64,000 bases of DNA from Candidatus Methylomirabilis tolerans (GTDB taxonomy: Bacteria; Methylomirabilota; Methylomirabilia; Methylomirabilales; Methylomirabilaceae). Shown in pieces: positions 23,840 to 40,405 of the stretch (positions are counted from its first letter, which is position 1; each line of letters starts with the position of its first letter). The stretch is from positions 1 through 64,000 of the forward strand of contig JAIOIU010000011.1 in NCBI GenBank assembly GCA_019912425.1, written 5' to 3'. Below the pieces are notes generated by a model. That model made no database searches. It saw only the letters and a list, made by a program, of their open reading frames with translations, and had not been told where the DNA came from. Position numbers and translations under genes: made by a program.

Positions 23840-24238
23840 TTAACCGAAAAGATCCGCTAATGTGACTACTTTCAAGTCGGCGACCCGGCGGAAGTGGCTG
23901 ACATTTCGAGTGACCAAGGCTAAATCGCGGACTAGGCATATCCCGGCGATGAGATTGTCGCCCGGATTGATCGGTTGGCCTTGACGCCTGAGCGAAAGAT
24001 CGACAGCCCCAGCGCGTCGCGCCGACTGAACGTCTACGGGAAGAATTATCAGTGTCGCCAGGAAGTCGTGGAGGTGCTGTCGATCACTTGCACGAGAAGC
24101 GCCGGAGTGCAACTCATAGGCCGTGATTGCCGTCGTAGCCGCCAAGTCCATCTCCAGCAAGTGTGGAATGACTGAGCCGGCAGGCTCGTATCCGGCGAAC
24201 AGGTCGATCAGGACATCGCTGCCCAGAACGAACTTCAC
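23840..24238 (-). CDS. vapC: PIN-domain toxin-like protein with substituted catalytic Asp (VapC-like)
   Basis: This PIN-domain protein of about 132 residues is read from GTG 24236-24238, whose GTGA overlaps the stop of the antitoxin gene. VapC toxins are Mg-dependent ribonucleases. Family features present are AITAYELHSGA, PGDNLIAGICLVRDLALVT and NVSHFRRV. The N-terminal motif, normally L-L-D-(S/T)-(N/D)-V-L-I-D, reads VLGSDVLIDL, so the first metal-binding Asp is Gly (GGC instead of GAC). The following Asp of SDV may or may not compensate. The toxin is probably weakened or dead, while the antitoxin could still act as a repressor. Confidence 0.82.
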   Translation of the reverse strand: MKFVLGSDVLIDLFAGYEPAGSVIPHLLEMDLAATTAITAYELHSGASRASDRQHLHDFLATLIILPVDVQSARRAGAVDLSLRRQGQPINPGDNLIAGICLVRDLALVTRNVSHFRRVADLKVVTLADLFG

Positions 24239-24492
24239 CGCCACCGCTTCCACAGCTCCGCTATGCGTCGCCGCATCCGCTCAGCCTCGGCCTCCGAAAG
24301 CGTGCCTCGGGCCTTCCGCGCAGCTTTGGCGGCTCTCACCCCAGCGCCCATCCGCCCTCCGTTTGGTCTCTCTTCGAGGTAGCGTTCCAACGCTTCATGA
24401 ATCAAGGTCGAGTAGCCTCGGAGCCGTCGTTTCGCCGCCAGCGTCAGGAGCTTCGCCCGTTGATCGTCAGTCAGTTCAATCGTCGTTCGCAC
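24235..24492 (-). CDS. vapB: Ribbon-helix-helix antitoxin (VapB-like)
   Basis: This 85-residue protein begins with an RHH-type segment, MRTTIELTDDQRAKLLTLAA then GYSTLIHEALERYLEE, and has a basic C-terminal tail that would wrap the toxin. GTG 24490-24492 is the start, with GGAGGTGATGCGC upstream; the nearby ATG is out of frame. The gene overlaps the PIN-domain gene. It probably neutralises the toxin and represses its own promoter, which has palindromic sites just upstream. Confidence 0.8.
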   Translation of the reverse strand: MRTTIELTDDQRAKLLTLAAKRRLRGYSTLIHEALERYLEERPNGGRMGAGVRAAKAARKARGTLSEAEAERMRRRIAELWKRWR

Positions 24493-24546: not shown

Positions 24547-25416
24547 TCACCCCTTACCGTGCAGGCCCTTGCGCTCGGCCAGGTAGTCGGCCAGGGCATC
24601 ACGCCAGTACCGCAGATCATCGAGACCGAGCGATCGCAGATTCGCATTGTCAAGGACGGAGTAGGCGGGGCGCCTGGCGGGAGCGCCGAAGGCGATGGCG
24701 GTCGTCTCCTGCAAGCGGGGGTGGAGGCCGGCCATCTCAAAAATCGCCGACGCAAACTGGTACCATGAACATTCTCCATGGTTCGTGATGTGATAGAGAC
24801 CGTACGCGCCGGTTTCGACGAGTTGTCCAACCTTGCGGGCCAGCTCCTTGGCGCTCGTAGGGGTCACGATCTGGTCTCCCACTACCCGAATCTCCCGCCC
24901 TTCCCGAGCCAGGCGGAGCATCGTCTCGACAAAATTCCCTATTTTGGTGCGCCTGCCTGCCGCGCCGTACAGCCCGCAGGTTCGTATCACGAAGTGCTGC
25001 GGCAACGTCGCTCTGACGAAGTACTCGCCGGCTAGCTTCGAGGTCGCGTATGCGCTCAACGGTCCGGGCGAATCGGTCTCCTGATAGGGAGTCCGCTTTC
25101 TGCCGTCGAAGACGTAGTCGGTGCTGAAATGGACGAAAATCGCTCCAATCTCCTTGGCGACGACAGCGAGATCTCTCACCGCAATCGTATTGACGGCAAC
25201 AGCGCGTTCGGGAAAGTCTTCGCACTCATCGACCCGATGATAGGCGGCGGTATTCAGGATCAGATCGGGCCGGTATGTGCGCACGGTCTCCCGCACTTGA
25301 CCCGGGTCGGTCAGTTCGAAATCAGCGTGGGTCAGTGGGACTAAATCGTGGCTGCCGAACGCCTGCCGCAACTCGCTCCCCAACTGCCCGTCAGCCCCGA
25401 TCAGCAGCGTGGTCAT
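24547..25416 (-). CDS. rmlD: dTDP-4-dehydrorhamnose reductase
   Basis: This 289-residue SDR enzyme makes dTDP-L-rhamnose, the last step of the pathway. It opens TTLLIGADGQLGSELRQAF, has ILNTAAYHRVDECE, STDYVFDGRKRTPYQETD and the catalytic Tyr-x-x-x-Lys in YATSK, and later GLYHITNHGECSWYQFA. Length and motifs match RmlD/RfbD. rmlA, rmlB and rmlC are not in the window, so they must lie elsewhere. It is flanked on both sides by PIN-domain toxin loci, an unusual setting that suggests this stretch has been rearranged. Confidence 0.93.
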   Translation of the reverse strand: MTTLLIGADGQLGSELRQAFGSHDLVPLTHADFELTDPGQVRETVRTYRPDLILNTAAYHRVDECEDFPERAVAVNTIAVRDLAVVAKEIGAIFVHFSTDYVFDGRKRTPYQETDSPGPLSAYATSKLAGEYFVRATLPQHFVIRTCGLYGAAGRRTKIGNFVETMLRLAREGREIRVVGDQIVTPTSAKELARKVGQLVETGAYGLYHITNHGECSWYQFASAIFEMAGLHPRLQETTAIAFGAPARRPAYSVLDNANLRSLGLDDLRYWRDALADYLAERKGLHGKG

Positions 25417-25497: not shown

Positions 25498-25947
25498 TTA
25501 CGGTAAGCTCAGGGTCTTTTCCGGGACATGCAGGAAGGGATTGATCACTTCTATCTCTTCGAACCGTTGCCGATCCTGAAAATCCTCGCTCAGCAGATAG
25601 CTGCAGCCAAGACGCTGCGCGGTCGCTACGATCAGCGCGTCCCACCACGCAAGACGATGCCGATCTTGTACGGTCCAAGCCGCTTCCAGGATGCCATAAT
25701 CGAGGGCAGCAGGTCTCCACACCCGGAGCATCACTACGTCCGCTCTGGCACGCTCAGCACTGAGGCCAGGATCGAGCTTACGAGTGACCGTTACGTAGTA
25801 TTCCGCGAGAACCTGGGTGCTGATGCGGCCCGATCGAGAACGCCAGAGGGCTTCGAGCCAAGCGCGGGCGCGGGGTTGTTTATCCCGCTCGTCGGCATCG
25901 CGACAATACACGAGGACATTCGTGTCAACGAAGATCAGATCGCTCAT
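25498..25947 (-). CDS. vapC: PIN-domain toxin, intact (VapC-like)
   Basis: This 149-residue PIN ribonuclease keeps its acidic residues: Asp in LIFVDTNVLVY, Glu in TQVLAEYYVT, Asp in RLAWWDALIVATAQ and Asp in LLSEDFQDRQ. It probably cleaves RNA when freed from its antitoxin. Its ATG lies inside the 3' end of the antitoxin gene (23-base overlap, different frame), the usual vapBC arrangement. No obvious independent promoter is seen. It is a different subfamily from the protein at 23.8-24.2 kb, so the two loci are not a recent duplication. Confidence 0.85.
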   Translation of the reverse strand: MSDLIFVDTNVLVYCRDADERDKQPRARAWLEALWRSRSGRISTQVLAEYYVTVTRKLDPGLSAERARADVVMLRVWRPAALDYGILEAAWTVQDRHRLAWWDALIVATAQRLGCSYLLSEDFQDRQRFEEIEVINPFLHVPEKTLSLP

Positions 25948-26687: not shown

Positions 26688-29600
26688 TTACTCCAGCGGC
26701 CTTTCGGCAGTCAGCAACAATTGCTCGCCTTCCCCCAGATAGCCGCAACGCGCCGACCAGTACAGGACTGCGTGAACCTTTCGAAACCCGACATCGCGCA
26801 TCTGATCAAGAAATTCCCACCCGAAATATTGGAAACACAACGCGCCGTGTTCCGAATCGATGGGATTGCCGTGATACTCGGGTGGCAAGCGATGGACGAC
26901 TTCCCCTTTCTCATCCAACGCGGCACGGATGACGTTCTGTCGCGAATCCCGCGCAAATGGAACGGTTATCAACAATAAGCCGCCTGGTTTCAGAACCCGA
27001 TAGATCTCCTCAACCCCGCGCAGGAAGTTCGGAACGTGTTCCAACACGTCGAACGTCAGCACATAGTCGAATGAATTCGAGTCGAATGTGAGTCGCGTAA
27101 CATCCTCATTTCTGACCCCATCTACCAGCGCCCCGAGCTCGACCGCTGGACCGAGGTATTCGCTGCCCTGCGTCAGCGGATAGCGCTCCCTTAACCAGCG
27201 ATACAACGGCGTGACCTGCTCCGTCACGTAAATGAGCGCGTCCGACGATATCGGCGCAACCTGGTACAACAGATGGATCGCGGCCCGGATACGGTTCACG
27301 TGCTTGCACTTGACGCACGCCACGTGCTCTCGCCAATTGGGGACCATCCGTCCGACCGACGAGGACATGTGGGCATACATAAAGCTCGTGACAAATGTCG
27401 TCTCACAGCCGCACATGACGCAGTAACCGGAGGTCGAAAACTCGCCGTTCTCAGCCGGAAGCAAAGAGGCCTCAAACGCATACCGTCGCGCGTATTCGGC
27501 TTCCATGCGGGCGCGATGTGCAGCATATGCCGTGAAGCTCTCGATCTCGTACGTCGAGTCCACAGGCCTGATGCCCTCCTCTAACGACTTAACAATAGCC
27601 CCCACGCGGTGCACCAAGGCATCACTCGAGAAGCTGTCGCGTACAGAGGTTAAGCCGGCGTCGCTCAAATACTCCCACAGCACGCGGTCGGTGTATGCCT
27701 CCTCAACGGCATCTGCAAAGCCCGCCGGCGTATCGGCAACCAGGATGTTGTGATGATCGCGCAGGCCCATGCCTTCCACGGCCATCGGCGTGGCCACGGT
27801 CGGCACGCCATAGGACAGACACTTCCCGATCTTGCCCTTGATGCCGGCCCCAAACCGAAGCGGGGCCACGGCGACCTTGATGCCGTCCAGGATGGGACTC
27901 AGATCCTGCACGAAACCATGGACGAATACACCCTCTGTCTTTGCAAGCGCGTGTACCTCGCCTGTCGGATTCGACCCAACAACGTGAAAGCGGACATCGG
28001 GTAGCCGGCGCCGTATAAGGGGGAATATCTCTCTCACAAAATATCGGACCGCATCGATGTTGGGCTCGTGCCTGAAGCCTCCGATAAAGATCAGATCACG
28101 GCGGTCTTCGAACGGTTTTCTACGACCCGGCACCTCCCGGACGATCAGCGGCAGCACACAAAGCGGCGCATCCGGAATCTCGTTTCGGACGGTATAGAGC
28201 TCTTCAGAACTCAGCACAATAGTCAGATCCGTATTGCGAATCAGATTAAGCTCAACAGCCTTGGTCCGTTCCGCCTGTGCCAGCGCTAAGGTTGATCCTT
28301 CCAGTTCAGCCTGTCGCTGCTCACGGACGTAGTGCAGGTCGACCGTATTGAATATCAGGAGGGCATTCGGTGCATGCGCTCGGATCAACTTGAGCCACGG
28401 ACCGACCACCGGACCACGGCACAGGACAACGAGCTGAAACGATTTGGCGTTCGTCTCAAGATACTGTTTCACCGAGGTCACCGCCGGATAGTGCACGCAC
28501 TCGATTCCCATATTGGTCAGTGTGTCGCCATAGGGCGGGTCATAACGAAGGTCGCCAGGCAGATACGTAATTCGATAACCGAGGCGAAGGAAAATATCCA
28601 GCAAGCACATCGTTGTGACCGACCCCGAGTCGTGATCAACCCTTGGCACTGCCCAGTCGAAGTAGAGCAGTCGAGGTCTGGGATCATTCGTCTGAAGCGG
28701 CTCCGAACTCGGTAGTCGCATCACGTGTTGAGACCGCGCTGACCGCTCTTCCCGATACGAACGGTACAGCATAACCGCCTTCTGCTTGCAGTGATCAAGG
28801 CCGTACCGGCGAAACGCGTACCACGCGCGACGCAGGGAGTTCATGCCACCATAACGGTGATAGACGAGAGACATGACCTGCGCCAGAGTGAGAATGTGCC
28901 GCCACCGGAATCTGGTCACATGACCTGCCCCCACGTTAAAGTCTCCACCAGCCGGCGCAACACCGGACGGTCCGACTTCTTGAGTCGTGACCTGTACTAC
29001 AGCCTCCTCTGCAACAAAGGCTTCGCCGCCGCTTTGTGTCGGGTGTGCAACCGACTGAGGCGTGTGCAGGTTGACACCGGATTCGCCGTTCCAACTGAAC
29101 GCGTACGGAAGTCTACGATAGAAATGATGGTTATTGGCAAAGACACGCCGCCGGTATTCCTTTACCAATAACTGAAGATCGCCGATATTCCCAAGCGTCA
29201 CCTCACTAGTGTGACGTGAAAACATCCGATGATCATCGAGCATGTGCCCGCTGAAATGGACGAACCGCAGCGGTTGATTGTTGGCAAACCACCGTCCATC
29301 TCGCAAGACAACCCGCCGCTGCGGCAGATTCCAATACGCAACGTTATAGCCGGGATGGTCTAATATCCGCGTACCCGGGATGAAAGCAGGGAAGAGATCG
29401 GCCCACCTCTGATCGACGAACAATCCTTCTTCAAGCTTGATTACGCAGTGATATTGGAGTCGCCGCCCCCACCACTCCAAAATCTTTTTAACCCGCGGAG
29501 TATGACGTAACGCAAGAAATCCAAGATTGTACACGCCATACAGCAACAGCCTCTGATCGTGCAACTCGGCAACTTCAGCAGGCTCCAGAATATGCGGCGT

Positions 29601-30179
29601 CAGAATCGCCTCTGCGTCGTTCTCGAGCAGTTGATCCATCTCGGTGAAGCGATCGACGACCAGGATATCCGGATCAAGATACACAACCGTTGGGATACCG
29701 CGTTTCGTAAAAATGTAGTTGAAGACGAACGGTTTAATCGCAGTATTGAATTCCGTGATGTTGTAGCGTTGCGCCATCTCCTCCACATCCGGAATAGCCA
29801 GGGAGGCAATCTCAATGATTTCGAAAGGGAGCTCCGTTATATCTATGCTGTTGTCCAGCCGATCGCACAGCGCCACGAAAAACGGTCGATTGGGGTAATG
29901 CACGCAAAGCGAGTCGTGCAATGTACGAGCATAGGCAAGGAAGTTCTTTGAGCATATCGTGAAAAAGGCTACGCTGGAAGGACCTATCTGTGGCTGGTCC
30001 TCGGAGACCGGTTCGCTACCTCGTTCTTGGTCACCCTGCATGGCTGCGGTCCTCTTTTGCCGATACACCTCGGGATTGGTGATGACAAGCCGGGAATGCT
30101 GCAATTGCTCCGTCGGTTCCCAGTTCCGCTGAGCGTGGGTCAGTAACTTCAGGGAAGGCGTATCGGGCTCTCGTTCCAT
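26688..30179 (-). CDS. GT8-like / GT4 / methyltransferase fusion protein
   Basis: About 1163 residues from ATG 30177-30179. In order: (1) a GT8/nucleotide-diphospho-sugar transferase-like domain (about 65-350) starting SVAFFTICSKNFLAYARTL, with the metal-binding VVYLDPDILVVD; (2) a GT-B GT4 domain (about 495-870) with LIFIGGFRHEPNIDAVRYF and FGAGIKGKIGKCLSYGVPTV; (3) a Cys-pair segment (CVMCGC and CVKCKH, about 920-960), possibly zinc-binding; (4) a SAM methyltransferase domain (about 1010-1163) with FDYVLTFDVLEHVPNFLRG and YRVLKPGGLLLITVPF. A classical GxGxG motif is degenerate. It probably adds two sugars and methylates a sugar or intermediate. Its first 30 residues derive from a lost GT4 paralogue. 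A TTG at 30192-30194 is an alternative start. Confidence 0.88.
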   Translation of the reverse strand: MEREPDTPSLKLLTHAQRNWEPTEQLQHSRLVITNPEVYRQKRTAAMQGDQERGSEPVSEDQPQIGPSSVAFFTICSKNFLAYARTLHDSLCVHYPNRPFFVALCDRLDNSIDITELPFEIIEIASLAIPDVEEMAQRYNITEFNTAIKPFVFNYIFTKRGIPTVVYLDPDILVVDRFTEMDQLLENDAEAILTPHILEPAEVAELHDQRLLLYGVYNLGFLALRHTPRVKKILEWWGRRLQYHCVIKLEEGLFVDQRWADLFPAFIPGTRILDHPGYNVAYWNLPQRRVVLRDGRWFANNQPLRFVHFSGHMLDDHRMFSRHTSEVTLGNIGDLQLLVKEYRRRVFANNHHFYRRLPYAFSWNGESGVNLHTPQSVAHPTQSGGEAFVAEEAVVQVTTQEVGPSGVAPAGGDFNVGAGHVTRFRWRHILTLAQVMSLVYHRYGGMNSLRRAWYAFRRYGLDHCKQKAVMLYRSYREERSARSQHVMRLPSSEPLQTNDPRPRLLYFDWAVPRVDHDSGSVTTMCLLDIFLRLGYRITYLPGDLRYDPPYGDTLTNMGIECVHYPAVTSVKQYLETNAKSFQLVVLCRGPVVGPWLKLIRAHAPNALLIFNTVDLHYVREQRQAELEGSTLALAQAERTKAVELNLIRNTDLTIVLSSEELYTVRNEIPDAPLCVLPLIVREVPGRRKPFEDRRDLIFIGGFRHEPNIDAVRYFVREIFPLIRRRLPDVRFHVVGSNPTGEVHALAKTEGVFVHGFVQDLSPILDGIKVAVAPLRFGAGIKGKIGKCLSYGVPTVATPMAVEGMGLRDHHNILVADTPAGFADAVEEAYTDRVLWEYLSDAGLTSVRDSFSSDALVHRVGAIVKSLEEGIRPVDSTYEIESFTAYAAHRARMEAEYARRYAFEASLLPAENGEFSTSGYCVMCGCETTFVTSFMYAHMSSSVGRMVPNWREHVACVKCKHVNRIRAAIHLLYQVAPISSDALIYVTEQVTPLYRWLRERYPLTQGSEYLGPAVELGALVDGVRNEDVTRLTFDSNSFDYVLTFDVLEHVPNFLRGVEEIYRVLKPGGLLLITVPFARDSRQNVIRAALDEKGEVVHRLPPEYHGNPIDSEHGALCFQYFGWEFLDQMRDVGFRKVHAVLYWSARCGYLGEGEQLLLTAERPLE

Positions 30180-30266
30180 TACGGATCGAGTCAACGTCTC
30201 ACAATAACTTTCCGTCCCGGCGGTCGATTCCTACGGAAAATTATGGACAATCTGAGGGGCCCGCAT
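30180..30266 (-). pseudogene. 5' remnant of a third GT4 paralogue (recombination scar)
   Basis: From ATG 30264-30266 the minus strand reads MRAPQIVHNFP, TAG, then ESTAGTESYCETLTRSV. This is homologous at DNA and protein level to the start of the two downstream-named GT4 genes (MRILQVVHGFPPESIAGTE-type). The frame then continues directly into EREPDTPSLKLLTHAQ, which matches the post-catalytic REPGTPYLKLIAHIQ segment of those same genes. Some 380 internal codons are therefore missing and the scar forms the N-terminus of the fusion protein that follows. Confidence 0.8.
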
Positions 30267-30303: not shown

Positions 30304-31860
30304 TTACCGTGGCGATCGTTTCGTCAGTACTGCCTGCAACTTGAACAAGGGTGTCCGGCGAAGATTCTCCAGCTCTGCCCGAAGAGATTCCAGCTCTACC
30401 CGAAGAGATTCCAGAGCCTGCTCCGCCTGCTGCAGGCGTGTCTCCTTTTCCGTCAGAGCCTGTGCTGCCTGCTGCAGGCGTGCCTCCTTCTCATCGCACA
30501 TCCGCTCGCTTTCCGCAAGACGTGACTGAAGAACCGCCAGTGCCGCCTCGCGCTCCTGGACCTGCTGTTGTATGTGGGCGATCAACTTCAGGTAAGGCGT
30601 CCCAGGCTCCCGCCTCGGTTGAGCGCTTTGAACGGCGTCTTCGTAGGTCTTCTCCAACATGGCGATATGCCTCTCCATCGAAAAGAACTTTTCGGGTTGG
30701 ATCTGTCGGCGCATCGTATTCAACATCTGTGGCGTATCCAGAATGTCCTGAAGCCGTTGGGCCAGATCGTCCGGGTCCCCAACTCGAAAGGTCAATCCCG
30801 CACCTCCGATCCGCTCTGGCAGAGCGCCCCTATCCGACACGATAACAGGGAGCCCGAGACACAACGCCTCATCCAGCGCGAATGAATAGGACTCGCTAGC
30901 GATTGAGGCGAACACCGCAAGATCAAGATCAAACGCTTGCAAGTCGGCGGGGTGGTATGCGCCGTGGAACTGAACCGAGATGCCGCAGGCAAGCTCCTGG
31001 AGCCTCTGCTGGTACTCCGGCTCCACTATGCTTCCGATCAAGTGGACGTGGACGCTTGACGGATCGCGTAACCTGTGAACCGCCTCCAGGATTAGGTGGG
31101 TGCCTTTCAGGTGCATGAGATAGCCCCAATGGCCGATTTGCAACGGCCTCTGAGGAAATGCCCCATTCTCCTCATGATCCTTGCGGCCCGTGAGCGCCGC
31201 AAACGTACCGTGAGGAAGAACGGTCACACGGTCATCCGGTAGATCGAGCAACGTCAAGATCAGGCGACGATGCGCCTCGGACGGCACCATCACCACTTTG
31301 GCCAGCGCCAGTTCGGCCTCTACGATCTCTCGGCGCAGCGTGAGCGCCCGAACTGTCTCCCCGTCGCCTTGCCATGAGGTACGCTCGACGCAGGTAAGGC
31401 ATGGCGCAGTAGCCGGCGGTTCCTCGCAGAACACATCGTCGGGACGGATCCGATAAATGCGGGGACAGGATGTCCAGACATCATGCAGCGTGATCACTAC
31501 CGGGATCTCTAAGTCGGCACAGATCGCCGCCAGGTTACTGGTCAGGTGCAACCAGTGGTGAAGGTGAACCACATCCGGGTTCACCAGAGCCAGCAGGCGC
31601 CGCACAAGGCGTTCTGCGTCAGCGTCATACTCGTCCGTCCATCGGTACGGTCGCCTCGCCGCCCGCCGGTATCTGGCAATAAGCAAGCCGTCCTGCTCGG
31701 AAACCGCCAAGGTCGCTTCCGTATCGTCACGACCTGAACCGGCCAGGACCACACACTCATGCCCGCGTTTCAATAGACATTGGACCACGGCCTCGCAATA
31801 TCTCTCCGTCCCGGCAATCGACTCCGGCGGAAAGCCGTGGACGACCTGAAGGATCCGCAT
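30304..31860 (-). CDS. GT4 glycosyltransferase with C-terminal coiled coil
   Basis: About 518 residues from ATG 31858-31860; a longer frame to 31986 adds residues with no homology to its paralogue. The GT-B catalytic part (about 1-400) opens MRILQVVHGFPPESIAGTER, has VVHLHHWLHLTSNLAAICAD, the donor-site FASIASESYSFALDEALCLG and LPVIVSDRGALPERIG. A Cys cluster (CPRIYRI...CEEPPATAPCLTCVE) is shared with the paralogue. Residues about 430-505 form a coiled coil with heptad-like repeats (EKEARLQQ, EKETRLQQ, LESLRVE, LESLRAE). The coiled coil suggests oligomerisation or docking with other assembly proteins. Sugar specificity is unknown. Confidence 0.9.
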   Translation of the reverse strand: MRILQVVHGFPPESIAGTERYCEAVVQCLLKRGHECVVLAGSGRDDTEATLAVSEQDGLLIARYRRAARRPYRWTDEYDADAERLVRRLLALVNPDVVHLHHWLHLTSNLAAICADLEIPVVITLHDVWTSCPRIYRIRPDDVFCEEPPATAPCLTCVERTSWQGDGETVRALTLRREIVEAELALAKVVMVPSEAHRRLILTLLDLPDDRVTVLPHGTFAALTGRKDHEENGAFPQRPLQIGHWGYLMHLKGTHLILEAVHRLRDPSSVHVHLIGSIVEPEYQQRLQELACGISVQFHGAYHPADLQAFDLDLAVFASIASESYSFALDEALCLGLPVIVSDRGALPERIGGAGLTFRVGDPDDLAQRLQDILDTPQMLNTMRRQIQPEKFFSMERHIAMLEKTYEDAVQSAQPRREPGTPYLKLIAHIQQQVQEREAALAVLQSRLAESERMCDEKEARLQQAAQALTEKETRLQQAEQALESLRVELESLRAELENLRRTPLFKLQAVLTKRSPR

Positions 31861-32052
31861 GCCAATTCTCTCGTTTTTAGTTACCTTGCAGCGCCCTACT
31901 TCCGTATAAGGGTAACCCCTGGAGCTGGGAATACAGCCGACAGATGCGAAAAGAACCCGACACGACTGCTGAGCCGAAGACCGCACGGACCCTCGGTCCC
32001 TACGTACCGAACGCGCCGTTCCGAGTGAGTGAGCTGTGGCTTGGCACTACTC

Positions 32053-35000
32053 CTACGCTGAGATACGTTTCCCCGATATCGGAGTTTGACCGAATGCAAC
32101 AATGCCCCGGCCACAATAATGATCATCCAGTGCGAGGCTTGAGAGCATCTCCTTTTCCGAACTTGACATATGTTCAACAAACTCCCTAAACAACATTTCC
32201 GGAAGAGTCGCCGGCAACGTGAGCTCGGGATACACACTGTTCTTAAGCGAAAAGAAGTCGTCTACGAATGAGACAACGCCGCGATGAATATCAGCGCGGG
32301 TGCGCATGGATTGTTGTTCGTCAATGGAATGCTCCTGATAGAGCGCCTCAGGTGTGCCGTTCTTATCCGCTACATAACAAATCACTTGTGGATCATTAGA
32401 GCTTAGAAGGGTCTCTAATTCAAAACTCCTTCGCCACAGCGAAGAGACACCGGATTTCGCGCGCCCAATCTGATCGGCATAGTATCCGCGCGCGAACGCA
32501 TTGTGCTTATTGCTGTTTTCGCGGGATCGTGCGGAGGTCAGCATGTAATACCCCTGGATCGGCTTCTTGAGAAACCCGGATAACAGTCCCTGAATAGTCG
32601 CCGAATACCCGACGTCGACGACCGCTGCCGGCTGAACATCGTTCAGTCCGATGTTATCCAGATACGCTGTCAAGCCGGGACGCTCGATACGACTGCGGGC
32701 AAGAATGCTCTCCGCCAACGCTTCCAGCACCGGTTTAAGACGGCGAATATCTCCTTTGACTTCCACCAATTCCCCTTTCTTCCAGAGACCTCGCGAGTAC
32801 AGCTCATGCAGGTCATCGTCTTTCAGGGTAAGTCCGTATCGGTATTTCAGGAACTCATGAAGCTCATTTGGAAAGTACTCGGAATCCCCGGCAATTCTGA
32901 AAATATCATCAATGGATTCAATCACCGGCACCGTGACTGCCCGACGGGACAACACGAGATATTCAGAGGGAATCGCGTCTTCTACGTGCATTGCAACATG
33001 GTCGTACACTTTTTTGAGCAATTGACCTTCACGAGCCAGAAAAAACAGTTTCTCGATCCCGTCCTTTCGTGCCGTATCTATCAACCATAAACAAAAACTC
33101 ATAATGACAGGACCCACCACAGCGTAGCCAATATGCTGGGGTCCGCCGTTAAGAAGGCTGTCAGGGTCTAACGATTGATAAAAGACCGGCCCGAAAAGCT
33201 TGCGGATCACCAATCCGAGCGTCAACTGCTCGTCCAAGCTGCCTTTCGTCTGAACCCATTCGATGGCTCTCGAAAATCTCGGCAATGCCCGGGCGATTTC
33301 GACCGGCCGCAACACGTGGCATACTTGAATTCCGAGATTCAATGGAATCTGCACATCAGAATGTTCGTTATCGCCTACCATGAGAAGCGCACTCGGGGCA
33401 ATCTGTTCCTGTTGCAGCACAAAGCGGTACAGCTCTCCGGTGTCCTTGCGAACACCGATATCCGACGATAGATACAGCGCGTGATACCCTGTCACCCCGT
33501 TCTCTGAGAGTATTTTCTCAACAACGCCACGCGGCAAAAACATGTCGCTCACAAGCACGACGCGCTTGCCGCTACGCACCGCATAATTCGCCAAATCTAT
33601 ACATTCCGATCGAGGGGCGACCAGGTGGAGTTCAGTGTCTTCCTCCAGGGCGCGGATATGCCCAACCTCATCGACCTGTTTGCCCGCCAGCGATGCGAAC
33701 TCAGCATAGATATCGTCAAGCCCTACGTCTCGCCCGAGGCGCGAGCGCGCTCGCACCTCGGCATGCGCCCGCAGTTCGGCATAATCATTGCCGATCATAT
33801 TCCGGCTGCGGTGGCCGATAATCGTTTTTGCAGTTTCGGGATGAATGACCGGACGGATAAGAAGCGTATCGAAGATATCGAAGGCAATGACCTTGACATC
33901 TTGCGCGTCCAACATCGTTTTGACGCAATGAACCGTCCTGGCCATATAGCGGTCGAATCTCCACTTTGACCAGCTTCGAACAACGGGATCAGCCAGAATC
34001 AACGGCTTGTAACCGGCATGCTTGACTGCGAGAACCAACAGCCGCTCAACACAGTGCGCAAGAGACCCATCTGTCTGGCCCGCCTCCTCCGGAAAGTCCG
34101 TCAGTTGAATATCGGCAGAAAAAAGTTTCTGAATGGCCTTACTCCTGGCCCAGAACATCGATCCCGCCGGATAGTCGAAGTATCCTTCCGGCACATCGGT
34201 GATCCCTATCTGCCGGCACATTCTGGAGCCCAGCGCTCTGTTGGACAGCCAGGTATTACCCCAATAAGGCAGATGCTCATAATTTTGAGGATAAACAATC
34301 CCTGCGCCCGGGTCTTTTTCAAATATGGAAAAGATCCGCCGAACCTGATCCTCACTACCCAGAAGCTGGCGGAAAAGATATTCCCGCCAGCCTTCCATCC
34401 TGCCCTGTGTATACACAGATTTCTTGGTGTGCACATGACAAATATAGTCGTATGTCGCTAACGTAGCACCAAAATGGCACACCATCGGCGCGATATCTCT
34501 TCCACGATTTACTACAACGTCCACGACAACTCGACCGGCTCGTGGCAGTTCTGAAAAAGCCTGATAACAGGTCTCACGCGCGCCGTCGGTCGAGACCGAA
34601 ATGAACAGGTCAAAAGCAAAGGGCACATTCCTCAGGTAAGAAGCTAACTCTGTTATCACATCAGGGTAGTACACATGGGCGTGAACGGCCACCCGACTCG
34701 AAATATCGCCGGACAGGGGATGGATATCGCTAATATTGAACAACTCCGGAGAATACGGAGTAGTATCAGGGGATTTAGTGGAAAGAGTGCGCATTTCCGC
34801 AATGATTCTGCGCGCTGTCGCCTTCAGGCCTGTTTTCCGGTAATATGAATGGGTCCTCCTGAACGTACTTTTGAGGTGCGCAAGGTTGATCGTGAACCGA
34901 TCCTTTCCGGTCAAGGCGCGAACAGGATGGCGAATCCATCGAATCGGCGCCGTCAGCTTCCACGTCGTGGATGAAAGAATAGCTTCCAGTGCTTCACGAT

Positions 35001-36540
35001 AAAGACGGGCTTCTGCATCAAGTCCGCTGATTCCCTCTTCCAACTCCGATACACGCTTACGCTGCTCTCGCAACGCCGCGTCCAACTCCGATACACGCTC
35101 ACGCTGCTCTCGCAACGCCGCGTCCCGCTCCCGGACGAGCGCTATCGCCACGGTTTCGGCTGCTGCGGCATGAGCCGCCTGTTGCTCGGCCTGCGCAAGA
35201 CACGACTGGAAGCCCGCCAGGGTCCTCTCGCGCTCTCGAACCTGCTGCTGAACGTAGGCGATCACCTTCAGGTAAGGTGTAGATGACTCCGTTGTCCGGC
35301 AGTTGGCGTGGGTGGCCTCCTGGTAGATCTTCTCCAGCACTGCAACATGAGCGTCCGTTGAAAAGAGCATCTCAGGCTGACTGCTTCTGCGCATCACCTC
35401 CAGCGTCTCCGGCGCATCCAGAAGCGCCTGAAGGCGCCTGGCCAGATCCCCTGCATCGCCGGCACGAAAGGTTTGGCCTGCGGCGCCGATCCGCTCCGGA
35501 AGAGCACCGCGATCTGAAACAAGGACCGGCAGCCCCAACCGCAACGCCTCGTCAATGGTAAACGAATAGGATTCACTGGTAATAGAAGGGAACACGGCGA
35601 GATCCAGATCAAACGCTTGCAGGTCGGACGGCTGATAGGCCCCATGGAACTGAACCGAGAGGCCACGCGCGAGATCGTGCAGTCGCTCCTCATATGCCTG
35701 TTCTATGGCTGTTCCGATGAGATGAACCTGAACAACCGTTGGATCGTTCAGTTGATGCAGCGCCTCCAGGAGCAGGTGCGTACCTTTATGATACAGAAAA
35801 TGACCCCAATGCCCAACCTGAAGCGGTCGATTCGAGAATGATGATGGCTTCTTCTGTCTCTCTCGCGTCATGATGGTCTGGAAGCTCCCGTGCGAGAGAA
35901 CCATTAATCGGTCTTTCGGAAGCTCAAACAGCTGAAGCAGCAATGAACGGTGAGCCTCGGACGGTACGATGAGAACCGAAGCAAGAGCAAGCTCTGTCTC
36001 GATCATCTGTTGACGTAGTGCCAGTGCAGCAGCAACCTCTTGATCCGTTTGCCATTGAGTTCGCTCGACACAGTGCAGACACGGTGCGGTGAGAAGAGGC
36101 TCTGCGCAGAACGACCCGTCTCGATGGATCCGATGGACACGCGGGCAGGAGGTCCAGACATCATGCAGCGTCACGACCACCGGGATCCCAAGGTCCGCGC
36201 AGATCGCCACCAGATTATTGGTCAGGTGGAGCCAATGGTGAAGATGGACGAGATCGGGGCGTACGGCGGCCAGCAGATGGCGCACCAACCCCTCGGCCTC
36301 CGGATCGTACTCCTCTGTCCAGCGGCGCGGCCGCCCTTCCAGCCGCAGATATCTGGTGACGAGGAGACCATCCTTCTCCACGGTCTCGAGGGTCGCCTGG
36401 GGAGCGCTTCGCCCAGAGCCTGCCAGGATTATGCACTCGTGTCCGCGCGCGAGCAGGCACCGACTTAACGCCTCGCAGTAGGTCTCGGTCCCGGCGATCG
36501 ATTCCGGCGGAAAGCCGTGGATGACCTGAAGGATTTTCAC
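32053..36540 (-). CDS. GT4 - coiled coil - RgpF - HAD multidomain polysaccharide protein
   Basis: 1495 residues from GTG 36538-36540 (GTGA overlap with the deacetylase gene). Domains: GT4 glycosyltransferase (1-405, paralogue of the preceding entry: MKILQVIHGFPPESIAGTET, FPSITSESYSFTIDEALRLG); coiled coil (430-525) containing a 14-residue tandem repeat; rhamnan-synthesis RgpF-like domain (about 610-860: AVHAHVYYPDVITELASYL, NRGRDIAPM, CHVHTKKSVY); HAD hydrolase-like domain (about 880-1090: VIAFDIFDTLLIRP, VLVSDMFLP, VRKDTGELY, LMVGDNEHSD, so all four HAD motifs remain); and a C-terminal region to 1495 of unknown type. It probably couples addition of sugars with a phosphatase or processing step near the Wzm/Wzt exporter. 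Confidence 0.9.
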   Translation of the reverse strand: MKILQVIHGFPPESIAGTETYCEALSRCLLARGHECIILAGSGRSAPQATLETVEKDGLLVTRYLRLEGRPRRWTEEYDPEAEGLVRHLLAAVRPDLVHLHHWLHLTNNLVAICADLGIPVVVTLHDVWTSCPRVHRIHRDGSFCAEPLLTAPCLHCVERTQWQTDQEVAAALALRQQMIETELALASVLIVPSEAHRSLLLQLFELPKDRLMVLSHGSFQTIMTRERQKKPSSFSNRPLQVGHWGHFLYHKGTHLLLEALHQLNDPTVVQVHLIGTAIEQAYEERLHDLARGLSVQFHGAYQPSDLQAFDLDLAVFPSITSESYSFTIDEALRLGLPVLVSDRGALPERIGAAGQTFRAGDAGDLARRLQALLDAPETLEVMRRSSQPEMLFSTDAHVAVLEKIYQEATHANCRTTESSTPYLKVIAYVQQQVRERERTLAGFQSCLAQAEQQAAHAAAAETVAIALVRERDAALREQRERVSELDAALREQRKRVSELEEGISGLDAEARLYREALEAILSSTTWKLTAPIRWIRHPVRALTGKDRFTINLAHLKSTFRRTHSYYRKTGLKATARRIIAEMRTLSTKSPDTTPYSPELFNISDIHPLSGDISSRVAVHAHVYYPDVITELASYLRNVPFAFDLFISVSTDGARETCYQAFSELPRAGRVVVDVVVNRGRDIAPMVCHFGATLATYDYICHVHTKKSVYTQGRMEGWREYLFRQLLGSEDQVRRIFSIFEKDPGAGIVYPQNYEHLPYWGNTWLSNRALGSRMCRQIGITDVPEGYFDYPAGSMFWARSKAIQKLFSADIQLTDFPEEAGQTDGSLAHCVERLLVLAVKHAGYKPLILADPVVRSWSKWRFDRYMARTVHCVKTMLDAQDVKVIAFDIFDTLLIRPVIHPETAKTIIGHRSRNMIGNDYAELRAHAEVRARSRLGRDVGLDDIYAEFASLAGKQVDEVGHIRALEEDTELHLVAPRSECIDLANYAVRSGKRVVLVSDMFLPRGVVEKILSENGVTGYHALYLSSDIGVRKDTGELYRFVLQQEQIAPSALLMVGDNEHSDVQIPLNLGIQVCHVLRPVEIARALPRFSRAIEWVQTKGSLDEQLTLGLVIRKLFGPVFYQSLDPDSLLNGGPQHIGYAVVGPVIMSFCLWLIDTARKDGIEKLFFLAREGQLLKKVYDHVAMHVEDAIPSEYLVLSRRAVTVPVIESIDDIFRIAGDSEYFPNELHEFLKYRYGLTLKDDDLHELYSRGLWKKGELVEVKGDIRRLKPVLEALAESILARSRIERPGLTAYLDNIGLNDVQPAAVVDVGYSATIQGLLSGFLKKPIQGYYMLTSARSRENSNKHNAFARGYYADQIGRAKSGVSSLWRRSFELETLLSSNDPQVICYVADKNGTPEALYQEHSIDEQQSMRTRADIHRGVVSFVDDFFSLKNSVYPELTLPATLPEMLFREFVEHMSSSEKEMLSSLALDDHYCGRGIVAFGQTPISGKRISA
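35041..35124 (-). repeat. 42-base tandem duplication in the coiled-coil region
   Basis: Two copies of a 42-base unit (35041-35082 and 35083-35124) differ by a single base and encode two 14-residue coiled-coil units (REQRERVSELDAAL type). The near identity points to a recent slippage duplication that lengthened the coil by about two turns per heptad pair. Confidence 0.85.
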
Positions 36541-37205
36541 TGCGCCTGCTCCAGTCGGTAGGCCTCCACGTAACGGGCCGACGGGCAGTAGATGGTCCGA
36601 TAGGTATTTAACCCGGCCCCCATGTAAATGTAATCATTGTAGCGGAGCTGGCTTTCGTACTGTTCGACCGCTTTGCGCTTCAGATCCCAGACCGTGGTGA
36701 TATCAAGGGCATGGGTCGGCTGGACTGCGGCCCAGATCTCGTAGCAGAAGTCGCCATACGCCGGCCTATACTGCTGCAGCGCCGCCTCAACTCCCACGGC
36801 CAGAGCCCAGTGATCGGGATGGACCTCTAATGTTGAAGGCCGGTAAAGAATATCCGGTTGAGATGTTGCGAACAGCCTCCCCAAGCGTTCGCTCAGATCG
36901 TGCGCCTCCGCGAGCCGACTATCGGGATAGTCCCAAAATACCAGCTCGTCGATCCCCAGGATCGACGCAGCCCGCCTGGCCTCCTCTCGACGTAACTCCC
37001 GGTAGTCCAGCCCCGCATAATAGCCCAATGGATCGCCGGCCCCTCCATCTGTGACGAAGACCACCTTCACATGATCGCCCTGACGATGGTGGAGCGCGAT
37101 AGCCCCGCCGCACCCTAAGCTCTCGTCATCAGGGTGGGGCGCCAGGACCAGCACACGCCCTTGTGGCAGGGATGCCACGACCTTAGGAAACTCAGGCGGT
37201 CTCAT
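36537..37205 (-). CDS. PIG-L family deacetylase (LmbE-like)
   Basis: This 222-residue zinc-dependent amide hydrolase has the metal-binding motif PHPDDESLGCGG (His24-Glu28), a second HPDH motif (EVHPDHWALA), and VVFVTDGGAGDP. PIG-L/LmbE enzymes remove N-acetyl groups from GlcNAc-containing conjugates. In this cluster it probably deacetylates an amino sugar of the growing glycan or its lipid carrier. Its stop overlaps the start of the 1495-residue gene (GTGA), so it is translationally coupled to it. Confidence 0.92.
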   Translation of the reverse strand: MRPPEFPKVVASLPQGRVLVLAPHPDDESLGCGGAIALHHRQGDHVKVVFVTDGGAGDPLGYYAGLDYRELRREEARRAASILGIDELVFWDYPDSRLAEAHDLSERLGRLFATSQPDILYRPSTLEVHPDHWALAVGVEAALQQYRPAYGDFCYEIWAAVQPTHALDITTVWDLKRKAVEQYESQLRYNDYIYMGAGLNTYRTIYCPSARYVEAYRLEQAQ

Positions 37206-37269: not shown

Positions 37270-38307
37270 TCAATAGATATCCGAATCCCCCATGGTGTAG
37301 TACCACCGGTCTCCGGCGCCCTCCAGCAAGACACTCGGGTCCGCAGAAAGGGCGACGAGCTCATATGGCGTCGGTTCGTGACGAAAACCAGCCGCCAACA
37401 AAAAACGGAGTTGACCGGATGGCGGAGGGAACCAGGCCTGAAGCGACTCCATGCCCGCTGTCCCGGCCAGCCATTCGACGTACGCGAGCAACGCCTCCCC
37501 GACGCCCGCAGAGCCGGATGGGACGAGCCAGTCCACCAGACAGGCCACCGGACGATCCTGCCAGCCGAGTCGAACCACCGCCACCCCCATCACCGTCCCG
37601 CTGAACCGTCTGCGGGCCACCAGGAGATGATAGTGCGCATCCGGGCACTGCAGATAGCGCCAGCGCAGATAGGCGGCATCACGAATGACCGCGACCGACA
37701 GATCATGGCGACAGCGCTCCCAGAGCCTGTCCAGCCCCGCATCCAGCTCCTTTTCCTCATTGACGGTCACGAAAAGAGACCTGCGGCCCTGGGCAGTCGC
37801 GCCAACATGAATCGGCTTCGTCAAGAGCGGAACCGGACCCAGCGGGACAAACCCCGCCAGGCGCTTGCCGGCACGCAGATGCTCCGGCGTCGGAAACCCA
37901 TATCCCCCCGCCATCTGTCCAAGCCCTGCAATATACTGATTCACCAGGGGCGCAAACACCCCGGGACGTCGCAGCCCGCGCCGCACCTGCGGGTCGATCA
38001 TGGCATCGGCGATCTGCGGCATCACCACCGTCTTTTCGCCCCACGCAATCCTGACAGGCACGCCGCCATAGTGCCCCACCAACTCCCCGGAAGGGGTTTC
38101 AACCACCAGGGAATAATGACCGAGGGGATTCGCCTCGTATTTCCACCGCCAATGCTCAGGTAAGCACTCAACGCCAAACACCGTGCGAAAGAGGGCGAGA
38201 ATCCGCCCCGTATCCTCCGGCCGATACCGTCGAATGACCCACCGCCCGGCCGGATCGATGTGGACGATTCCGGCGTCTATACGAGCAGTCTCCTTATGCG
38301 CCGGCAT
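37270..38307 (-). CDS. GNAT-like acyltransferase
   Basis: About 345 residues from ATG 38305-38307, overlapping the 3' end of wzt by 14 bases. A longer frame to 38463 lies inside wzt and is not credible. The first half has IRRYRPEDTGRILALFRTVF with W-R-W-K-Y-E-x-N-P, and the second MGVAVVRLGWQDRPVACLVD with GVGEALLAYVEWLA, as in large GNAT/Eis-like or FemAB-related proteins found in polysaccharide clusters. It likely transfers an acyl or aminoacyl group to a sugar. The donor and acceptor are unknown. Confidence 0.75.
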   Translation of the reverse strand: MPAHKETARIDAGIVHIDPAGRWVIRRYRPEDTGRILALFRTVFGVECLPEHWRWKYEANPLGHYSLVVETPSGELVGHYGGVPVRIAWGEKTVVMPQIADAMIDPQVRRGLRRPGVFAPLVNQYIAGLGQMAGGYGFPTPEHLRAGKRLAGFVPLGPVPLLTKPIHVGATAQGRRSLFVTVNEEKELDAGLDRLWERCRHDLSVAVIRDAAYLRWRYLQCPDAHYHLLVARRRFSGTVMGVAVVRLGWQDRPVACLVDWLVPSGSAGVGEALLAYVEWLAGTAGMESLQAWFPPPSGQLRFLLAAGFRHEPTPYELVALSADPSVLLEGAGDRWYYTMGDSDIY

Positions 38308-39529
38308 GACGCGTTGCAGGCACGGCCGCCGCCGCCGGCAGGCATTCAGCCTCCAGCTCCCACTGGTGGGGCAGCAATGCCAGGCCGGCGGCTTGGATAT
38401 TCTGCACGACGTTGAAGGGACACTGGCGCTCAAGCCGATCATAGACGTGAAGGCCATGCTCATCCAGCAAAAAGACCGTCACCGTGTACTGCCCGCTCAG
38501 CAGTGGCAGACGCGGCAGACGCAGGCAGACTCGTCCACCCGTAGGGAACGGGATCGTACCTGCAACATGAGTAGCGGTTCCAAACACCTGGACGGCATCA
38601 TTCCGGTCAATGCAGATTCCCACGTGTACAGGAGTAGGCGGGTTCGGAACGCAGTAGTCAACAGACACCACCAGATCCTCCCCGGTCACAAACTGGTCGC
38701 ACGATCGGTCCGCACTGCGGCGGCCGACTAAGACCTGTGAGATCCAGGGAAACGCCTGCGGCGCTCGCTCAACGGCCGGAAGCGAACGAGCGGGCGCGTC
38801 ACGCTCTCGCAGGTAGTTCTCATAGGCGGCTATGACCGAAGCGGTGTCGCCCGCCTTCGCGACCTGCCCATCCTTCAGCCAGATTGCCTCGGAACAGACC
38901 ATCCGAACCTGGTACAGACTGTGGGAGCAAAAGAGGATCGTTTTACCCGCCTTCCGGAAGCGCTCGATGCGATCGATGCACCGTTTCTGGAAGTACTGGT
39001 CTCCCACCGCGAGCGCCTCATCGACGATCAAGATGTCCGGATCCACGCTTGTGGCGACGGCGAACGCCAGACGAACGTACATGCCGCTGGAGTAGATCTT
39101 GATCGGCCGGTCGAAAAAGTCGCCGATCTCGGCAAAGTCGGCAATCTCCGACAACCGCTGTTCCATCTCCTGTGGCGGGATGCCCAGAATGGTCCCGCTC
39201 ATCATGGCGTTCTCTCGCCCTGTAAACTCGTGGTTGAAGCCGGTCCCCAACTCCAGAATCGTTGAGATCATCCCGTGAGTGGTAACCTGCCCGGCAGTAG
39301 GTCGCAGGACGCCGGCCACAAGCTGCAGCAGGGTACTCTTGCCGGCGCCATTATCCCCGATGAGGCCGATGGTCGAACCTGTCTTGATCTGGAGGCTCAC
39401 GTCCCGAATGGCCCAGAACGGCTGGTGATAGCTGCGACGGCCGCGACAGATGAACTCCTTCAGGCGGTCTTTCGGGCTGGCGTAGATCCGGTAGGCCTTC
39501 GAGACCTGGCGCGCCTCAATGGCGAACAT
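38294..39529 (-). CDS. wzt: O-antigen ABC exporter, ATPase subunit with C-terminal carbohydrate-binding domain
   Basis: This 411-residue protein has an N-terminal ATPase (about 1-245) with Walker A GDNGAGKST, the ELGTGFNHEFTGRENAMMSG segment typical of polysaccharide exporters, signature YSSGMYVRLAFA, and Walker B DILIVDEALAVGD. A C-terminal Wzt_C-type beta domain (about 270-400) reads ...LVVSVDYCVPNP...VHVGICIDRNDAVQVFGT. In known systems that domain recognises the modified non-reducing end of the glycan and gates export. Its ATG shares one base with the wzm stop (TGATG). Confidence 0.93.
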   Translation of the reverse strand: MFAIEARQVSKAYRIYASPKDRLKEFICRGRRSYHQPFWAIRDVSLQIKTGSTIGLIGDNGAGKSTLLQLVAGVLRPTAGQVTTHGMISTILELGTGFNHEFTGRENAMMSGTILGIPPQEMEQRLSEIADFAEIGDFFDRPIKIYSSGMYVRLAFAVATSVDPDILIVDEALAVGDQYFQKRCIDRIERFRKAGKTILFCSHSLYQVRMVCSEAIWLKDGQVAKAGDTASVIAAYENYLRERDAPARSLPAVERAPQAFPWISQVLVGRRSADRSCDQFVTGEDLVVSVDYCVPNPPTPVHVGICIDRNDAVQVFGTATHVAGTIPFPTGGRVCLRLPRLPLLSGQYTVTVFLLDEHGLHVYDRLERQCPFNVVQNIQAAGLALLPHQWELEAECLPAAAAVPATRHAGA

Positions 39530-40320
39530 CAGAGTACATCAGCAAAGGCAGGTTGAAGCCGGGTGAACAGTCGGTAGCCCATAATGAAGACCACTGCGCC
39601 GATCGACGCCAGAAAGACAACGCTCCCCCACGACGGGAGCTGCCCCCTGAGGATCAGGCTCCGATAGGCCTCCACAAGGGCGTACATCGGGTTCACCACC
39701 AGGAGGGGCTGCAAGCCCTGGGGAACCACAGACGGTGGATAGAAGATCGGCGTCAGGAAGACCCCGAGGGTCAACATCATGCCGAGCATTTGACCAAGGT
39801 CCCGGATGAATACCGTAACGCCTGCGACGATCCAGGCGAGCCCTGTGGTGATTGCGAACTGCAAGATGAAGATAACCGGCAGCAGCAGCATCACCGGATA
39901 GATGGGATGCCCGACGAGCAGCAGAGCGGCCAGAAGGATGACGAATCCAATGAACTGGTTGATGATCCCCACAATGACCGGATAGATAGGGAGGATCTCA
40001 GAAGGGAAGATCGCCCGCTTGATCAGGTTCGAGTGCTCCAGAATGACGCCCGTAGAACGATTGAGCCCCTCGGCGAGCGCATTCCACGGCAACATCCCGC
40101 AGAAGAGATAAATTGCGAACTGCTCGGTTCCCTCGCTGGCGCCCACCCGGACCTTCATGATGGTCGAAAAGACAAAGGTATAAAGCGCCAGCATGATGAG
40201 CGGGTGGATGACCGACCAGAACAGCCCGACTACAGATCCCTTATAGCGAGCCAGCAGGTCTCGTTTGGCGAAACTCCAAATGAGGGCTCGGTGACGCCAG
40301 AGCCCAGAGATGCCATCCAT
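39529..40320 (-). CDS. wzm: O-antigen ABC exporter, permease subunit
   Basis: About 263 residues from ATG 40318-40320, preceded by GGAGGCGTA. It is an ABC-2 type permease with six membrane spans, the amphipathic start LIWSFAKRDLLARYKGSVVG and FWSVIHPLIMLALYTFVFS, and RAIFPSEILPIYPV. With Wzt it forms the channel that moves undecaprenyl-diphosphate-linked polysaccharide to the periplasm. A longer frame to 40377 adds codons that include the promoter -10 region and is rejected. It is the first gene of the operon. Confidence 0.93.
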   Translation of the reverse strand: MDGISGLWRHRALIWSFAKRDLLARYKGSVVGLFWSVIHPLIMLALYTFVFSTIMKVRVGASEGTEQFAIYLFCGMLPWNALAEGLNRSTGVILEHSNLIKRAIFPSEILPIYPVIVGIINQFIGFVILLAALLLVGHPIYPVMLLLPVIFILQFAITTGLAWIVAGVTVFIRDLGQMLGMMLTLGVFLTPIFYPPSVVPQGLQPLLVVNPMYALVEAYRSLILRGQLPSWGSVVFLASIGAVVFIMGYRLFTRLQPAFADVL

Positions 40321-40375
40321 TACGCCTCCGTACACGTAGGGCCTGCCGGCAACGGCCCTCGCTACATGACAATTC

Positions 40376-40405
40376 ACTATACGAGTCGCCCGGCACCATC
40401 GTCAA
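40376..40405 (-). promoter_or_regulatory. Promoter of the wzm-wzt operon
   Basis: On the minus strand: TTGACG (40400-40405), 18-base spacer, TATAGT (40376-40381). The short leader holds a hairpin with arms AGGGCC and GGCCCT (40338-40343 and 40354-40359). Confidence 0.65.

Follow-up and report, generated by a model that had tools for sequence, protein, structure and literature searches.

The window analyzed here is a 64,000-nucleotide stretch (contig JAIOIU010000011.1, positions 1 to 64,000) of the genome of Candidatus Methylomirabilis tolerans (2.65 Mb, 167 contigs), a member of the methane-oxidizing Methylomirabilis bacteria. Within a polysaccharide cluster, one open reading frame with a GTG start encodes a protein of 1,495 residues (P0001), parts of which are 93 to 99% identical at the gene level to records of Candidatus Methylomirabilis sp. 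isolate Ru_enrich_MO2. The GTG start overlaps the stop of a PIG-L gene by 4 bases, and GNAT, Wzt, and Wzm genes follow upstream in the same direction (Table 1), which bears out an earlier note on this DNA that placed P0001 in an operon with a PIG-L deacetylase near Wzm/Wzt. On the other side lies P0002, directly followed on the minus strand by a 1,168-residue protein (26688-30194) with an N-terminal part carrying DPDILVVD, a GT4 region (TIGR03087-like, below cut-off), and a C-terminal methyltransferase. Two minus-strand PIN-domain genes (23840-24253 and 25498-25947) also sit inside the polysaccharide cluster.

Table 1. Features of the P0001 locus (window coordinates; residues are those of P0001)
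Feature	Position	Strand	Remarks
RmlD, dTDP-4-dehydrorhamnose reductase	24547..25416	-	supports a rhamnose donor
P0002, GT4-coiled coil protein without polymerase	30304..31986	-	59% identical to the P0001 N-terminal part
P0001 ORF	32053-36540	-	1,495 aa; GTG start
gPRT/CriT PRPP-dependent phosphoribosyltransferase, residues 1101-1495	32056..33240	-	R1170/E1171, S1198/R1199, D1309, Q1317
PRP/CrpP-type HAD phosphoribosyl phosphatase, residues 872-1100	33241..33927	-	D888 nucleophile, S998, K1032, GDNEHSD
RgpF domain (C-terminal half of PF05045), GT-A-like model, residues 614-844	34009..34701	-	Pfam and model
Coiled coil and SSTTWKLTAPIR junction motif, residues 406-558	34867..35325	-	heptad windows 424-458, 475-524
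GT4 glycosyltransferase (GT-B), residues 1-405	35326..36540	-	Pfam; EX7E motif 323-331; putative terminator
PIG-L family deacetylase	36537..37205	-	nearest NCBIfam BshB1, below cut-off
GNAT-like acyltransferase	37270..38463	-	listed start overlaps wzt, may be too early
Wzt: ABC ATPase with C-terminal Wzt_C carbohydrate-binding domain	38294..39529	-	Wzt_C 2.2e-15
Wzm: ABC-2 polysaccharide export permease	39529..40377	-	

Pfam recognizes GT4 domains at residues 17-385 (7e-18 to 1e-14), with an intact EX7E motif (E323-E331), an RgpF domain (8e-53; 180.2 bits against a gathering score of 25) that covers only model positions 269-503 of 503, and a HAD domain at 882-1064 (2e-08); residues 1065-1495 have no Pfam match. 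Between GT4 and RgpF, both heptad windows stand out against shuffled controls, marking a short coiled coil of ~100 residues, and of 10 proteins checked, 7 carry a short motif (consensus near SSxxWKLTxPIR) after the coiled coil. Neither the linker of a variant with an N-terminal GT2 module (L004) nor the GT4-coiled coil protein of genome G004 showed a heptad signal. The union of GT4, coiled coil, RgpF, and HAD in one protein, as originally proposed, is thus supported by Pfam, by the heptad windows, and by the same single ORF in genomes G006 (1,462 residues, from a single-contig genome) and G012 (1,458 residues). An assembly chimera is ruled out as the origin of P0001 by these same two genes.

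A PDB sequence search with P0001 retrieved 7shg, a "Ribofuranosyl transferase" (9.4e-24), over two stretches (871-1076 and 1149-1335), and Bcs3 (6.8e-19); a profile of 11 relatives (A1) matched the PRP and gPRT domains of 7shg separately (1e-32 and 3.7e-29) and Bcs3 at 1.3e-48. An AF2 model of residues 870-1495 (13 sequences; pLDDT 86.6, pTM 0.87) aligned along its whole length in VIA-align with 7shg_A (Z 27.5, rmsd 13.4, 528 residues aligned) and with 8a0c_A, the Bcs3 structure (Z 25.7; 560 residues of the model, within 11-625, aligned at rmsd 4.8), the high rmsd against 7shg_A probably reflecting domain orientation. The next VIA-align rows cover the HAD part only, at Z 17.9 or less, and Foldseek agrees. 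We therefore hold with high confidence that the HAD domain and the ~390 residues behind it form a ribofuranosyltransferase, that is, a gPRT (CriT) with its phosphatase PRP (CrpP). The earlier note had called those residues uncharacterized and suggested predicting their structure; by sequence, profile, and fold, they belong to a known domain. Pfam alone, which gives only GT4, RgpF, and HAD, would suit a picture near that first one, an ordinary GT4-RgpF fusion whose sugar-phosphate phosphatase is unrelated and whose tail is structural, but the profile and fold matches to solved ribofuranosyltransferases span HAD and tail alike and make it highly improbable. The same matches, over HAD and tail, rule out the reading as a generic sugar phosphatase followed by an unknown tail.

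The catalytic residues can be compared with those of Bcs3. Motif I of the P0001 HAD domain reads FDIFDT, which keeps the nucleophile D888 and places F890 where the second Asp of DxD would stand, while motifs II (S998), III (K1032), and IV (GDNEHSD, 1056-1062) are present; the original reading of a complete HAD with all four motifs accordingly holds for the nucleophile and motifs II to IV but not for the second Asp of motif I. The available passages on CrpP of Bcs3 describe the same condition, with only the first Asp (D386) kept (PMC10299916), so that the lone Asp of P0001 matches a known phosphatase. In CriT, D680 and E818 hold ribose and R679, S707, and R708 hold phosphates. Counted along the rows of the profile alignment, with a one-residue PDB-chain offset allowed for, D386 corresponds to D888, R679/D680 to R1170/E1171, S707/R708 to S1198/R1199, and E818 to D1309. 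The acidic pair is therefore kept but swapped (E1171/D1309), as E/D in 7shg too, and CriT R712 is T in P0001 and is also missing from 7shg. Columns R301, G303, S329, R330, D440, and Q448 of A1 are invariant in all 11 rows; in a 13-row alignment (A3), G303 is not among the invariant columns and Q448 is only nearly so. The lone motif I nucleophile with motifs II to IV, the gPRT/CriT homologue directly after HAD, and the acidic pair place P0001 among the dual-domain PRP + gPRT enzymes. By homology, the gPRT would move Rib5P from PRPP and the HAD domain would take off the 5-phosphate. The first proposal that sugar transfer and phosphate removal act on one intermediate finds support in this homology, with the correction that the partner of the HAD domain is the then unrecognized gPRT and not, or not primarily, GT4 or RgpF.

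The RgpF domain returned no PDB sequence match at E 1 or better. All 50 VIA-align rows for an AF2 model of residues 558-869 (8 sequences; pLDDT 74.9, pTM 0.79) fall at Z 11.7-13.4, including RmlT with TDP-rhamnose (Z 12.2) and the fucosyltransferase WrtF; these rows read as GT-A-type glycosyltransferase proteins, and the model suggests that RgpF is GT-A-like. The RmlD gene in the cluster and an RmlB above its cut-off elsewhere in the genome make a dTDP-rhamnose supply plausible, and on this circumstantial basis RgpF probably uses dTDP-rhamnose, with rhamnose as the second sugar. Given the PRP-gPRT identity and the GT-A model of RgpF, we consider it likely that the RgpF-PRP-gPRT half acts as a two-linkage polymerase for ribofuranose and a second sugar, probably rhamnose. 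The PRP-gPRT unit could instead add ribose side residues to a backbone built by RgpF and GT4, since ribofuranose side chains occur in bacterial glycans; the systems in the available passages of that source, however, use a membrane UbiA-type polyprenyl-phosphate synthase unlike the P0001 gPRT (PMC11127046), and the characterized gPRT fusions Bcs3 (PMC10299916) and Cj1432 (PMC12096443) are described in the passages available as backbone polymerases, so that we regard side-chain addition as improbable.

The two-linkage polymerase occurs behind several N-terminal modules. The complete GT4-coiled coil-RgpF-PRP-gPRT order is a single ORF in three Methylomirabilis species (the window, G006, and G012, the last on the same contig as locus L002), and of 95 Methylomirabilota genomes searched for the domain architecture, 5, all from a single genus out of 33, have the fused RgpF-PRP-gPRT; one of these (G060) is split over two contigs and belongs to the window's species, and another (G013) has no N-terminal module: a stop lies just upstream of its 956-residue polymerase ORF, and the sequence immediately before that ORF matches no GT4, GT2, or methyltransferase. 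A second assembly of the window's own species (L003/L005) has the gene broken at contig ends. Between L005 (8001-9215) and the window (35326-36540), the GT4 domain is 93% identical and the flanking Wzt and RgpF parts are ~99% identical, a possible sign of local recombination at GT4. The fused polymerase was also found in 2 of 395 genomes drawn from the phylum of the L004 genome and in 1 of 398 drawn from that of the L010 genome. In Nitrospirota, a GT2 module precedes it (L004, and G330, where a contig end interrupts the sequence); in genome G525, a methyltransferase does so, with a weak heptad signal; and in viral contig L043, a methyltransferase-like ORF is followed by a 1,025-residue RgpF-PRP-gPRT ORF. 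A search of viral contigs for RgpF relatives confirmed none. Stand-alone PRP-gPRT and GT2-PRP-gPRT proteins occur in the same groups.

Plasmids carry the polymerase as well. Of 113 plasmid records with any match, 4 cover at least 80% of the query, among them Sphingobium (in pieces), Pantoea, and Citrobacter braakii, and the listed plasmid records annotate the fusion only as "rhamnan synthesis F family protein." WGZ97604.1, on the Klebsiella michiganensis IncX5 plasmid CP124771.1, has the same C-terminal polymerase as P0001 (~41% identity) but a methyltransferase and coiled coil before it instead of GT4; its operon also contains rfbBADC, wzm, wzt (Wzt_C 3.5e-38), and two GT2 genes. The surrounding region of this conjugative plasmid (L106, 7109-18445) forms a complete-looking rhamnose/ribose ABC-type polysaccharide cluster, and genes matching it lie on Citrobacter and Pantoea plasmids. 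No match to the plasmid gene was found in E. coli genomes.

Within Methylomirabilis, it is the GT4 half that keeps its place. The gene order Wzm-Wzt-GNAT-PIG-L-GT4-coiled coil recurs, and PIG-L lies directly before the GT4-coiled coil gene in 11 of 13 loci (the window, L005, L031, L036, L035, L034, which is partly at the fetched edge, L039, L040, L041, L042, and L017; the exceptions are L018/G003 and L006), a count that leaves out second, more distant GT4 copies in some loci. Behind GT4-coiled coil stands RgpF-PRP-gPRT, GT2-GT4 (G009, 1,325 residues), or nothing, and genomes that lack the polymerase or have another one (G004, G009, G010, G011, G007, and G008) still keep the GT4 half together with the export block. 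A 19-row GT4 tree has one supported clade of 7 (99/97) that contains all three downstream kinds. Of the genomes compared, G013 has the RgpF most similar to that of the window (82%), but its GT4 is only 44% identical. Downstream of the replaced GT4-coiled coil-GT2-GT4 gene of G009 lies a 75-bp, 83%-identical remnant of a gPRT 3' end (L035, 12067-12156; 30 codons, protein E ~1e-9); none of 20 shuffled tails matched that locus, and one matched another locus at 0.005. We read this remnant, from its sequence, as the scar of a lost or replaced gPRT polymerase cassette. GC3 is lower in the polymerase part than in the GT4 part in all three fused genes (0.57 versus 0.64, 0.64 versus 0.69, and 0.72 versus 0.81), which fits, weakly, a separate origin of the two.

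From the domain identities, folds, conserved catalytic residues, gene neighborhood, and module exchange established above, we propose, at a probability of about 0.72, that P0001 is the assembly enzyme of an ABC-transporter-dependent, O-antigen-like surface polysaccharide, in which a two-linkage polymerase is joined through a coiled-coil spacer to an N-terminal GT4. The reaction chemistry, sugars, and terminator and ruler roles that we infer for Methylomirabilis tolerans would be as follows. With PRPP as donor, the gPRT would add ribofuranose-5-phosphate to the growing chain, the PRP would remove the 5-phosphate so that ribose can be extended, and the GT-A domain of RgpF would add the other sugar, probably rhamnose from dTDP-Rha. 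The coiled coil would space the polymerase from GT4, which would cap and so terminate the chain, and the Wzt_C domain of the neighboring Wzm/Wzt would recognize the capped product.

Two features of WbdD/WbbB-type terminator-polymerase proteins are present: a coiled coil between the N-terminal and polymerase modules (475-524, though short) and a neighboring Wzm/Wzt with Wzt_C, whose reading of a cap is putative. For ABC-dependent O antigens, the available passages describe a cap that ends chain growth and is recognized by the Wzt CBD (PMC9445017); a coiled-coil ruler separates the polymerase at one end from the terminating enzyme at the other (PMC11231755). Two observations fit this plan: the N-terminal partner of the polymerase is of three kinds, including a methyltransferase like that of WbdD-type terminators, and GT4 stays with the exporter. 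The literature passages on such systems gave no description of a GT4 terminator, and by analogy we give the assignment of this role to the P0001 GT4 about even odds. Alternatively, GT4 may be a third polymerase module, giving a three-sugar repeat (the GT4 sugar, the RgpF sugar, and ribofuranose) with termination elsewhere, for example in P0002. This reading draws on Cj1432, a GT4-PRP-gPRT protein whose GT4, in the available description, adds GlcA to ribose (PMC12096443), and on the presence of a second GT4-coiled coil protein, P0002, next door; the retention of the GT4 half with the export block where the polymerase is absent or different, and the occurrence of the polymerase behind GT2 or methyltransferase modules elsewhere, speak against it, and we judge it rather unlikely.

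P0001 GT4 and PIG-L have below-cut-off matches to BshA and BshB1, a GlcNAc-transfer and deacetylation pair, and these matches suggest the speculative idea of an amino-sugar cap in Methylomirabilis. Extended further, and only tentatively, one protein would build, measure, and cap a ribofuranose polymer, with the coiled coil flanked on both sides by swappable cassettes; in Methylomirabilis, a constant export-linked set would make the cap (GT4 adding HexNAc, PIG-L deacetylating it, and GNAT re-acylating it), so that one cap would serve the exporter on many polymers.

The dual-domain core of P0001 is not new in itself. The Thermobacillus composti ribofuranosyltransferase 7SHG (Kelly 2022) is reportedly a stand-alone PRP + gPRT unit, not fused to GT4 or RgpF, and the available passages describe the Klebsiella pneumoniae O4/O7 enzymes likewise (PMC11231755). 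Bcs3 of Haemophilus influenzae type b resembles P0001 in holding PRP (CrpP) and gPRT (CriT) inside a multi-enzyme polymerase, but its partners are a ribitol-phosphate transferase (CroT) and SH3b, and the passages available describe no coiled coil or RgpF (PMC10299916). The closest characterized fusion is the capsule polymerase Cj1432 of Campylobacter jejuni HS:2, which has GT4, HAD phosphatase, and PRPP-dependent ribosyltransferase in the same order; it differs in its C-terminal helix bundle, in the lack of any coiled coil or RgpF GT-A domain between GT4 and phosphatase in the available description, and in that its N-terminal GT4 is a polymerase module and not a terminator as proposed for P0001 (PMC12096443). 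In layout, P0001 resembles the terminator-coiled-coil-ruler-polymerase proteins described for ABC-exported O antigens (WbdD, WbbB, and K. pneumoniae O7), with GT4 placed where the terminator would be. K. pneumoniae O7 ORF6 + ORF7 and O12 WbbB join terminator, coiled coil, and polymerase GT modules, and the O7 Rha/Ribf polymer is exported by Wzm/Wzt; in the passages available, however, the O7 ribosyltransferase is a separate protein and termination is by methyl-phosphate, whereas P0001 has everything in one chain with an N-terminal GT4 (PMC11231755). The earlier note did not know this exact combination; the papers searched likewise contained no description of the five-part fusion, while its parts, and close relatives with two or three of the modules (the T. 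composti enzyme, Bcs3, Cj1432, and the K. pneumoniae O4/O7 enzymes), are already described.

These data turn a "HAD plus unknown tail" into a candidate ribose-polymer synthase and predict ribofuranose in the Methylomirabilis surface polysaccharide; no Methylomirabilis paper was among the literature matches listed for surface glycans. Across several bacterial groups, conjugative plasmids of Klebsiella and Citrobacter included, the polymerase cassette is the same and the N-terminal module before it differs. Such module swaps constitute a natural experiment with which the exchangeability of coiled-coil terminators and polymerases could be tested.
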